Source of the DNA: Pseudomonas wuhanensis
GTDB taxonomy: Bacteria > Pseudomonadota > Gammaproteobacteria > Pseudomonadales > Pseudomonadaceae
Reading direction: 5' to 3'
NCBI RefSeq assembly: GCF_030687395.1
Contig: NZ_CP117430.1
Coordinates: 6,262,001-6,326,000 of the forward strand
DNA length: 64,000 nt
Below, piece after piece: positions 32,693 to 39,997 of the stretch (within the stretch, counting starts at the first letter, position 1; every line of letters starts with the position of its first letter). Made by a program: the position numbers and the translations under genes. Under the pieces are notes generated by a model. It saw only the letters and a program-made list of their open reading frames with translations. It was not told the DNA's origin and ran no database searches.

Positions 32693-32783
32693 CTCGCGGG
32701 CAAGCCACGCTCCCACGGAATCTGTGCCGTACGCATTTTTTGTACACGACACGAATTCTGTGGGAGCGTGGCTTGCCCGCGAA
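32693..32783. repeat. REPIN, copy 2
   Basis: Inverted REP units CGCGGGCAAGCCACGCTCCCAC and their complement, about 40 bp apart, directly downstream of the molybdoenzyme gene. Confidence 0.88.
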
Positions 32784-32844
32784 GACATTCGACTTGGCAA
32801 CACACGTATCGACACCCTTCGAACACTTTCCAATCGCCCACAAA

Positions 32845-32874
32845 AAAGGCCGTTTTTGTATAAAAACGGCCTTT
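32845..32874 (+). terminator. Intrinsic terminator downstream of the molybdoenzyme operon
   Basis: AAAGGCCGTTTTT / AAAAACGGCCTTT around a GTAT loop. It is a strong hairpin flanked by A and T stretches and may act in both directions. Confidence 0.7.
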
Positions 32875-33029
32875 GCGAAGTAGTTAAAGACCGGCGAAAA
32901 ACACTTAAGTTCCACCAAAAAAACAGTAACTTATAGAATTGTGCTCAAGTCGTGTTACTCGTCGGATTTCGATTGTCACAACCATCACACAGCCTCAGGA
33001 TCGCGCCGTCATCCCCTTGAGGTTCCTCT

Positions 33030-33518
33030 ATGAAGTTCTCCTCGATTCTCTTGTTGTCCCTTGGCCTGGTCAGTGGCTTCGCTTCTGCAGGCGGCACCAC
33101 CGAAGCGGGTGTGGGCGGCGCATTGGGCGGGGTTCTTGGCTCGGTCGTCGGTCAATCGCTAGGCGGCAATACAGGTTCAACCATTGGTGCGGCCCTGGGC
33201 GGCGCGGGTGGTAGCGCAGTCGGCGCAGACAAACGCAGCCGTGGCGAAGCTGCCATTGGTGGTGCGTTGGGCGCAGCAGGTGGTAACGTGGTCGGCCGCA
33301 GCATGGGCGGCACCACTGGCAGCCTGATCGGCTCCGCAGCAGGCGGTGGTGCCGGTGGCGCGCTGGGTAACTACATGGGCAGAGAGAGTGATCGCGACGA
33401 TGATCGTCGTTCCTATCGTCGTGGTTATGACGATGATGATCGTCGCTACTACCGTGGTCACCCGGGTCGCGGCCATGCCTACGGCCATCGCAAGCATAAA
33501 CATCGCTATCGCGACTGA
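33030..33518 (+). CDS. Exported glycine-zipper protein with charged His/Arg tail
   Basis: A 162-residue protein. A signal peptide (about 20 residues, ending GFASA) precedes three Gly-rich segments (GGALGGVLGSVVGQ, GAALGGAGGSAVG, GGALGAAGGNVVG and similar) of the glycine-zipper type. These form hairpins that insert in, or lie on, the outer membrane. The last 45 residues are rich in Asp, Arg, Tyr and His (GYDDDDRRYYRGHPGRGHAY). There is no Cys, so it is not a lipoprotein. GAGG lies upstream of the ATG. A structural or envelope-stress role is usual for the family; no specific function can be claimed. Confidence 0.85.
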   Translation: MKFSSILLLSLGLVSGFASAGGTTEAGVGGALGGVLGSVVGQSLGGNTGSTIGAALGGAGGSAVGADKRSRGEAAIGGALGAAGGNVVGRSMGGTTGSLIGSAAGGGAGGALGNYMGRESDRDDDRRSYRRGYDDDDRRYYRGHPGRGHAYGHRKHKHRYRD

Positions 33519-38441: not shown

Positions 38442-38471
38442 TTGCGACGCCTCGCCCTGGCCCTCTATAGT
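38442..38471 (+). promoter_or_regulatory. Candidate promoter of the first small paralog gene
   Basis: TTGCGA (38442-38447) is 18 bp before TATAGT (38466-38471). The extended box CTATAGT is shared with 39106-39112 upstream of the second paralog and has the C at -13 often seen in RpoS promoters. The rest of the 310-bp gap 38233-38542 shows nothing recognisable. Confidence 0.45.
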
Positions 38472-38542: not shown

Positions 38543-38836
38543 ATGAACACGTTCCACTCGTTAACAGACCGCTATCGCCCGCTCAAAACCAGCTACAGCG
38601 ACACCCCCGTGCTGCTCATCGACACCGAAGCCGATCCCCACGAAATCCTCGACGCCGCCCGACAACGCATCCGCGCCGCCGGCGACCTGCTGGAAACGCT
38701 TTATTGCCTGTGCTTCAAACAGGCCGACGTGAAAGACATCCCCAACATCGTCACCGCGCTGTACCTGCTGACACAGGACGGCAACGAACTGCTCGAAATT
38801 GCCCGGCAACGTCTGCCGAGTACCACAGCGGTTTGA
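38543..38836 (+). CDS. Small paralogous protein A (97 aa, DUF3077-like layout)
   Basis: A 97-residue soluble protein with CAGGA upstream of the ATG. Its core, LLIDTEADPHEILDAARQRI then RAAGDLLETLYCLCFKQAD and NIVTALYLLTQDGNELLEIA, is clearly paralogous to the protein at 39351. In layout it resembles DUF3077 proteins (Asp-Thr-Glu strand followed by three helices). Function is unknown; these small proteins are common and variable in Pseudomonas. It is followed by an orphan antitoxin fragment. Confidence 0.7.
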   Translation: MNTFHSLTDRYRPLKTSYSDTPVLLIDTEADPHEILDAARQRIRAAGDLLETLYCLCFKQADVKDIPNIVTALYLLTQDGNELLEIARQRLPSTTAV

Positions 38837-38851: not shown

Positions 38852-39019
38852 ATGAACGATAACGCGGTGTGCCTGATGAAAAACGCAGACAAAGTGGCCT
38901 ACGAGGCATGGTTCAGAGCACAAGTACAAGCCAGCCTCGACGACCCTCGCCCCAGCATTCCAAATGATGAAGCCAAACGCCTGATGGCAATCAAACGGGA
39001 CAAATTGCTGAAGCGATGA
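38852..39019 (+). CDS. Orphan stability-determinant-type antitoxin, possibly truncated
   Basis: A 55-codon ORF (or 47 from the ATG at 38876). Its centre WFRAQVQASLDDPRPSIPND matches the conserved core of the small stability-determinant antitoxins that pair with ParE/RelE toxins. The N-terminus is shorter than usual. It is preceded by a REP fragment (GAGCCTGCTCGCGATG), as if the original 5' end was replaced. No toxin gene follows. It is probably a relic. Confidence 0.5.
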   Translation: MNDNAVCLMKNADKVAYEAWFRAQVQASLDDPRPSIPNDEAKRLMAIKRDKLLKR

Positions 39020-39145
39020 GTCTGTAAGCAACGCCCTATCACAGCTTCATCCCGGTCCTACAACCGAAGACACCTTGTCGCCTATCGCTGCCCGGTGGCT
39101 CAAACCTATAGTCGTGACTGTCGCTGCCAAATCAGCGGCTCGGGC

Positions 39146-39350
39146 TTGGTCACCCGATGGAATACATAAACGCGTCCGTTGTATGCTGCCGGCACCTCAA
39201 GTGTCTGCACGCTATATGGTGGCTGTGTTTGGGACGCCTTAGGCGTGCCGGTCTTATGTATTCCTCCGGTTGACCAACCCGAACACAGTCCGCCTCCATC
39301 GCTTGGTCACGATGGTGGTGCTTCCATCTGATGCTTTGGGAATACATAAA
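39146..39350 (+). promoter_or_regulatory. Structured leader with mutually exclusive stems (candidate cis-regulatory RNA)
   Basis: The left arm 39146-39169 pairs with the right arm 39254-39277 over 21 of 24 positions. GCCGGCAC (39188) pairs with GTGCCGGT (39245) inside the loop, and ACGCC/GGCGT forms a small hairpin. CCATCG/CGATGG flanks a third copy of TTGGTCAC (39303). The segment GGAATACATAA occurs in the left arm and again at 39339-39349, directly before the ATG at 39351. The central arm could therefore pair with either and hide the ribosome site. A CTATAGT -10-like box lies at 39106-39112. Confidence 0.6.
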
Positions 39351-39650
39351 ATGAATACATGGAATCCGCTCACCAACGATCGTTACCTTCCGCTGCAAAC
39401 CAACCTCACCGATTCCCTGCCCCTGATCATCGACACAGAGGCCAACCCGCAAGACATCCTCGAAGCCGCCCTCCAGCGCATCCGAGCCTCCAGCGACCTC
39501 CTCAAAACCCTGCACTGCATTTGCTTCAAACACGGCGACATAGAAGACATCCCCCACATCACCCACGCGCTCTTCTTGCTGACCCAGGACGGCTGCGACC
39601 TGCTTCAAGTCGCCCAGCAACGCATGATGAGCTGGAAAGCACCGGCCTGA
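39351..39650 (+). CDS. Small paralogous protein B (99 aa) with structured leader
   Basis: A 99-residue soluble protein, paralog of the 38543 gene: LIIDTEANPQDILEAALQRI, SSDLLKTLHCICFKHGDIED and HALFLLTQDGCDLLQVAQQR align along the length. No motif gives a function. The ATG follows the third GGAATACATAA copy of the leader immediately, and GGGA is the only purine-rich site upstream. Expression may therefore depend on leader folding. Confidence 0.72.
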   Translation: MNTWNPLTNDRYLPLQTNLTDSLPLIIDTEANPQDILEAALQRIRASSDLLKTLHCICFKHGDIEDIPHITHALFLLTQDGCDLLQVAQQRMMSWKAPA

Positions 39651-39763: not shown

Positions 39764-39997
39764 ATGAGCAAGTTTTTTGATGAGCTAATGGAAAGCGTGC
39801 AACAGATGAACGAAATCATCCGCGGTGGGAGTGAGCCTTCTCGCAAACTCCATGTTGATGCGTTGCAAGTCCAGGAAATTCGTAAGGCTACCGATCTGAC
39901 TCAGGCCAAGTTCGCAGCGTTGATCGACGTCCAACTCGACGTAAAGTCAGGCTTAATCAGTCTCACCGATATACACCCAACGGTAGATGCACCATGA
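39764..39997 (+). pseudogene. Truncated NadS/HigA-type antitoxin
   Basis: A 77-residue ORF with GGAG upstream. The N-terminal half (FFDELMESVQQMNEIIRGG, then ALQVQEIRKATDLTQAKFAA) matches NadS-like Xre antitoxins. After LIDVQLD the expected recognition helix (LRNWEQGRR type) is replaced by an unrelated tail, so DNA binding must be lost. The toxin gene normally sits upstream, but a half repeat element is there instead. Its stop overlaps the start of the next gene by 4 bp (ATGA). Confidence 0.65.

Follow-up and report, generated by a model that had tools for sequence, protein, structure and literature searches.

What kind of RNA precedes the small gene that starts at position 39351 of the window (the whole stretch of 64,000 nucleotides of the Pseudomonas wuhanensis chromosome analysed here)? 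A first-pass annotation had proposed a leader RNA whose central arm has two mutually exclusive partners, one of them lying over the start region of a small paralogous gene, and had read this as an attenuator or riboswitch of an unfamiliar family. On recheck, the arm pairing, repeats and coordinates in that description were all exact, and both the competing partners and the small paralogous gene behind them are borne out. The kind of regulator is a different one.

Identity of the leader RNA

The arm at 39146-39169 is complementary by Watson-Crick pairs to 39254-39277 at 21 of 24 positions. The segment GGAATACATAA occurs twice in the leader (39159-39169 and 39339-39349, the second copy ending one base 5' of the ATG at 39351), and both copies are perfect complements of 39254-39264; TTGGTCA(C) also occurs twice, at 39146 and 39303. 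A search for an 11-mer that is followed by its complement 40-200 nt on, and by the same 11-mer 30-160 nt further, returned one occurrence in the real 64-kb window and none in three mononucleotide shuffles. The predicted RNA fold of 39130-39380 has an energy of -97.9 kcal/mol (z = -4.0), and none of 200 dinucleotide shuffles was equally stable.

The first-pass annotation knew of no Rfam family for this element, and we found that there is one. The model for the C4 antisense RNA (RF01695) matched over its full length (1-87 of 87) with 57.2 bits, above the cut-off of 45 bits (cmscan; E = 2.1e-8 in the window). The c4-a1b1 model (RF03163) also matched at full length (1-53), with 40.0 bits against a cut-off of 46.7 (E = 1.6e-8 in 801 bases); the stretch 39106-39160 sits and works like a1b1, though it is not a formal member of RF03163. 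The isrK model (RF01394) reached 28.8 bits in a cmscan of the leader region, below its cut-off of 50, so the leader is not a member of that family. A riboswitch or attenuator is disfavored because cmscan returned no such Rfam family and a terminator scan of the + strand of the leader found none. Judged from its sequence, the leader is that of a C4-type antisense-RNA operon with a1b1 and a2b2 targets, and not a riboswitch: the left arm is a1b1, the central arm is b' plus a', and the copies to the right are a2 and b2 (Table 1).

C4 is best known as a single phage immunity RNA. In the annotated record of phage P1, a1 comes first, followed by b1, C4 (77 nt), a2, b2, and icd. On the P1 sequence, the C4 linker is the partner of a1 and a2 (TTGACAG in both cases) and the loop of the second hairpin that of b1 and b2, and we follow this usage in calling the linker a' and the loop b'. 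The central arm of the window leader corresponds to the active part of an RNA that in P1 is small and separate. The window leader resembles c4-icd-ant (immI) of P1, as given in that record, in its order (a1-b1-C4-a2-b2-gene), in its use of the linker and the loop, and in having a2 directly after C4 and b2 just 5' of the start codon. As in a P1-type operon, the two targets (a1b1 5' and a2b2 3' of C4) are complementary to a' and b', and b2 lies at the ribosome-binding site of the first gene. In contrast to P1 and P7, the leader is on a host chromosome rather than in a phage; its gene encodes a small protein without an assigned function, instead of Icd/Ant; and the genome holds about 48 copies with different loops, instead of one.

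The place of the TATAGT hexamer 5' of the element is kept in most of the related leaders listed, and a TA...T signature is found about 12 nt 5' of the first hairpin in 44 of the 48 C4 cassettes of this genome (those that could be anchored). A sigma-70 consensus scan did not find a promoter at the 5' end of the leader. The hexamer is also present, at 38466-38471, in the leader of a tandem paralogue of the regulated gene (38543-38836; 73% DNA identity over 254 nt), which has no C4 match and is possibly another C4-less copy.

Table 1. Positions in the window of the elements of the C4-type leader and of the gene behind it
Feature	Position	Strand	Basis
TATAGT, -10-like hexamer, probable promoter of the operon	39107..39112	+	sequence; conservation in related leaders
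c4-a1b1-like element (RF03163), 5' hairpin and a1-carrying hairpin	39106..39160	+	cmscan, 40.0 bits
Target segment a1, TTGGTCA, partner of C4 a'	39146..39152	+	complementarity; named after annotated P1
Target segment b1, GGAATACATAA, partner of C4 b'	39159..39169	+	complementarity
C4 antisense RNA (RF01695)	39212..39300	+	cmscan, 57.2 bits
Possible RNase P cut at GG of ATGGTGG, within C4	39218-39219	+	analogy with the A. baumannii paper only
Antisense segment b', apical loop of C4 second hairpin	39254..39264	+	covariance match, complementarity
Antisense segment a', linker between C4 second hairpin and closing stem	39271..39277	+	covariance match, complementarity
Target segment a2, in loop of hairpin CCATCG...CGATGG	39303..39309	+	sequence, fold
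Target segment b2, overlaps Shine-Dalgarno-like GGGAA, ends 1 base 5' of start codon	39339..39349	+	sequence
Regulated gene, 99-aa DUF3077-like protein, predicted helical hairpin	39351..39650	+	protein analyses

A set of C4 cassettes in one chromosome

The first-pass annotation had also supposed that similar elements precede other DUF3077-type genes, and they do. The genome (6.59 Mb, one contig) has 48 C4 matches, 46 of them above the cut-off; this number may be a minimum, since scoring covered 150 of 1,818 candidates. A C4 lies within 600 nt 5' of 33 of the 39 DUF6124 genes, and of 5 of the 8 DUF3077 matches, on the same strand, where about 0.2% would be expected per gene. Neither family stands behind 10 of the 48 C4s. 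We scanned 46 products, namely 45 cassette products (all but those of C25, C45, and C47) and that of the C4-less paralogue in the window; 33 were assigned to DUF6124, 2 to DUF3077, and 1 to Bro-N.

Bro-N antirepressor-like genes are found behind two of the 48 cassettes only, C06 and C47. C47 (L055, at 5417431 of the genome) has a phage-like form: C4 is followed by a leader frame of 21 codons, and this frame overlaps the Bro-N start, an arrangement that resembles the coupled start described for IsrK (PMC4825925). The phage antirepressor relatives of this Bro-N gene are less than 60% identical to it. Two cassettes look damaged: C25 has no targets, and C45 has a frame of just 14 codons.

The a1b1 model gave 47 matches in the genome, 23 of them at or over the cut-off (one place is counted on both strands), and a match lies at most 150 nt 5' of C4 in 40 of the 48 cassettes. 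At two other places (C1:3975656-3975708, or L058, and C1:5776950-5777002, or L010), a1b1 is found about 165 nt 5' of a DUF6124 match with no C4 match between them; these are C4-less cassettes within the same genome as the window. A crude scan for a hairpin (at most -6 kcal/mol) and a U-run before C4 found these in only 10 of the 48 cassettes, which argues against a general terminator of the IsrK type across the set.

Most of the antisense RNAs match their own targets

All 48 loops are distinct, and the 48 linkers comprise 43 different sequences. We found that the longest run of complementarity between b' and b2 was 7.44 within cassettes and 3.46 between a cassette and the others; the corresponding values were 6.69 and 4.04 for b' and b1, 6.90 and 2.57 for a' and a2, and 6.83 and 4.55 for a' and a1 (0 of 10,000 permutations for each of the four contacts). 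At least three of the four contacts are 6 nt or longer in 44 of the 48 cassettes, and all four are in 25. The cassettes with fewer than three are C06, C25, C33, and C48, and C25 has essentially none.

When we required a loop run of 7 together with a linker run of 6, the downstream target was matched in 34 of the 48 own pairs versus 7 of the 2,256 mismatched pairs. Across the 48 cassettes, the average energy of the downstream duplex was -24.66 kcal/mol with the own target and -15.45 kcal/mol with other targets, and that of the upstream duplex was -31.01 and -21.38 kcal/mol, respectively. Ranked by duplex energy, the own target was the best of the 48 in only 27 cassettes (downstream) or 30 cassettes (upstream), and with looser search stretches the own targets were less distinct (counting ties, the own target ranked best in 24 to 32 of the 48). 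As predicted from these sequences, the insulation between cassettes is strong, not perfect.

Relatives of the window cassette in the genus

The window cassette is not core: a match at E = 1e-60 or better was found in 69 of 398 genomes of the genus. We compared 68 related leaders, which are the best match of each of these genomes but one. The C4 linker motif is present in 60 of the 68 (these include L148 and L150, which have the leader type of the paralogue C44), with 29 distinct loops among them. For these loops, the duplex with the upstream target had an energy of -19.32 kcal/mol with the own target versus -11.59 kcal/mol otherwise, and the duplex with the downstream target -13.46 versus -9.15 kcal/mol (0 of 10,000 permutations in both cases); the downstream segments of L110 and L130, misplaced through a misjudged gene start, were kept in and count against covariation. 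The own target was the single best partner for only 14 (upstream) and 11 (downstream) of the 29 loops. Covariation was one of the checks that the first-pass annotation had named for its fold, and the antisense and its targets covary strongly, in the paralogues and in the related leaders.

The other eight leaders (L153-L160) form a natural deletion series. No C4 was matched in any of them at E = 0.01; all eight retain a match to a1b1 (three are over the cut-off), together with a promoter-like box and hairpins directly 5' of the start codon; and their gene shares 83-91% identity with that of the window. The gene therefore survives without C4, which can be dropped from the leader as a module.

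We also compared the best 80 of 112 named loci that encode a relative of the protein, all of them from Pseudomonas. In 70 of these 80, at least one other, non-paralogous neighbour from the window lies within 1.5 kb (pckA in 32 and recQ in 20), which implies that the locus is mostly inherited in place.

C4 in other genomes, phages, and plasmids

At least one C4 was found in 231 of 249 genomes of the genus, our own genome included (16 candidates were scored per genome, so that each of the many counts of 16 is a minimum), and in 20 of 320 further genomes sampled from across the class (at most 10 in each, with 13 candidates scored per genome). In 16 genomes of the genus, chosen partly for low counts, the number of C4s ranged from 0 to 48 and tracked the number of DUF6124 genes (Spearman correlation 0.98, Pearson correlation 0.96). 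In genome G550 we examined nine of ten C4s; by eye, small related proteins of a different family are encoded behind eight of these nine, in which the upstream match is preserved and the downstream match is slight or missing. From 21 places with C4 in other genomes, we scanned six products, and none had a Pfam match at E = 0.01. Genome G537 has four tandem C4 cassettes within 1.4 kb (L251 1700-3092), three of which share a loop; all of the linkers differ, and each cassette has its own downstream target.

We also surveyed the neighbours of the cassettes (133 of 134 frames from 47 cassettes, the Bro-N gene behind C47 being left out). The 25 of 93 Pfam families listed are of host type, with roles such as metabolism, transport, secretion, and regulation; Mutator transposases account for four of the neighbouring frames. 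The PHROG listing (25 of 46 families, most of them without a name) includes transposases, and no structural phage protein is named in it. Among the families listed, then, the neighbours look chromosomal.

The DUF6124 protein of cassette C34 had a tblastn match in 1 of 50,697 phage records and in none of 72,556 plasmid records. In that single phage record, the DUF6124 gene is at the record's very end, adjoining prtR, and has its own C4. The window protein (by tblastn) and the window leader (by blastn) had no match in the 50,697 phage records. The near-absence of the C34 protein, the window protein, and the window leader from these records argues against recent phage or plasmid cargo. The C34 leader had two phage matches; a stretch of PP003922.1 (L260 2171-2351) is 71% identical to it, and this is a 10-kb satellite-like Pseudomonas phage record with genes for an integrase, an excisionase, and a primase.

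The regulated gene and its product

The window gene had been called DUF3077-like, and this is true of the names that some of its database relatives carry; the product itself falls below the DUF3077 model (PF11275), having no Pfam match at E = 0.1. Nor is it an antirepressor by its families, as neither Bro-N nor an Ant family was found in it. One protein search gave 1,520 relatives for DUF6124. For two products, AlphaFold predicted helical hairpins with moderate confidence (pLDDT 75.1 and 76.2, pTM 0.46 and 0.64), and Foldseek searches with the predicted structures returned nothing at E = 0.001, so we claim no function for the protein.

The cassette is flanked by two other short frames, one for a PaaA2-type stability determinant (38852-39019; PF21217, E = 5.3e-14) and one that is HTH-like (39764-39997), which matches phrog_2104 and is possibly truncated. 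The Pseudomonas sRNA P34 (RF02405, 184.4 bits) is also encoded in the window, on the - strand at 32745-33130.

A proposed mechanism and its alternatives

Given the architecture, the complementarity, the covariation, and the association with a gene family, we consider it very probable that the leader is the control region of a C4-type antisense operon, one of about 48 cassettes in which phage-type immunity circuitry seems to have been taken over and multiplied by the host genus. In the mechanism that we propose, one RNA from a promoter near 39107 would carry a1b1, C4, a2b2, and the gene at 39351, in that order. By analogy with P1 and P7, C4 would probably be cut out by RNase P (PMC5320573), and the GG motif of this putative cut is present at 39218. 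As in P1 and P7, the ribosome-binding site would be covered when b' and a' of C4 pair with b2 and a2, and translation would be repressed. The a1b1 segment would compete for the same antisense segments, either within the uncut transcript (in cis) or as a 5' RNA released from it (in trans). If Salmonella IsrK is a guide (PMC4825925), this competition would lift the repression.

Like the window leader, the isrK-orf45-anrP system of the Salmonella prophage Gifsy-1 (RF01394) has a 5' a1b1-like RNA; alternative structures A and B have been described for it, as has a short 5' RNA that switches translation on (PMC4825925). The window leader differs from it in scoring below the isrK cut-off, in that no terminator was found before C4, and in that no antirepressor lies downstream.

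For the window leader, the predicted fold in which a1b1 is bound to the antisense is better by 19.1 kcal/mol than the two parts folded apart. Across the set, the lowest predicted energy belongs to the state with C4 antisense bound to the upstream part in 24 of 47 cassettes, and this split in the modelled states fits a balanced switch, short of proof. The state predicted for the window leader would also suit a purely cis-acting leader with two states, in which the C4 fold and the a1b1 pairing are alternative mRNA structures that open or close the start site and no separate antisense RNA is made; so would structures A and B of IsrK, and so would the eight of nine copies examined in G550 that have no clear a2b2 and keep the upstream match. 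We nevertheless regard a cis-only leader as unlikely. The leader shares its C4 stems, its loop geometry, and its GG motif with P1, for which an RNA of 77 nt is annotated; changes in a2b2 go together with changes in the antisense; and in Acinetobacter baumannii, reads from the C4-like RNAs far exceed those from their upstream part (PMC5320573).

In most of the cassettes, C4 has a cis target of its own and a member of a host gene family behind it, and this makes it rather improbable that the C4 set is an immunity repertoire which acts in trans on phages or satellites with matching a2b2 antirepressor leaders, the small proteins being incidental. That idea is also hard to reconcile with the lack of a blastn match to the window leader in the phage records, and with the one DUF6124 query protein being found in a single record and at its end. 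It would account for the differences among all 48 loops and for the satellite-like phage record that matches the C34 leader, and C4 is held to underlie the heteroimmunity of P1 and P7 (PMC12197685). Finally, it is highly improbable that the cassettes are decaying remnants of many C4-bearing prophages without a present role: the two cassettes that precede Bro-N antirepressor-like genes, the damaged-looking C25 and C45, the loss of C4 in 8 of 68 related leaders, and the four Mutator transposases among the neighbours would fit, but compensatory change is maintained in paralogues and related leaders, no structural phage protein is named among the 25 of 46 neighbour PHROG families listed, and the gene is still 83-91% identical where C4 is gone.

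What a chromosomal C4 set may mean

Both c4 and c4-a1b1 are given in Weinberg 2010, which, according to PMC5320573, already predicted C4 in the Pseudomonadales. In A. baumannii AB5075, 21 Group 1 C4-like sRNAs have a variable loop and are apparently processed at the GG motif (PMC5320573); where that paper discusses their possible targets, it does not name any. The set in our genome is about twice as large, and in contrast to those RNAs we assign it both cis targets and a gene family. In Burkholderia cenocepacia J2315, isrK and C4 are given as one transcriptional unit, and the table in that paper has one C4, unlike our genome (PMC4603805). In the main texts of the open-licence papers that we searched, we found no report of a many-copy C4 set in Pseudomonas or of a link to DUF6124.

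To our knowledge, about 48 C4 cassettes in a chromosome, most of them with matched targets, would make up an unusually large collection of antisense regulators acting in parallel in one bacterium. The set provides a regulatory handle on DUF6124, a family without an assigned function, and likely targets, left unnamed where the A. baumannii report discusses them (PMC5320573), for the multi-copy bacterial C4 RNAs. The set is in addition a naturally occurring series of regulatory RNAs that differ in their pairing codes, and the rules of these codes can be read from it directly. A more tentative suggestion is that Pseudomonas turned a phage immunity RNA into dozens of largely insulated switches with private, fast-diverging codes, which are kept in step at a1b1, a'b', and a2b2 and control diversifying small helical proteins of DUF6124 and DUF3077; their function may lie in the diversity itself, as it would in a repertoire that is allelic or that faces phages.
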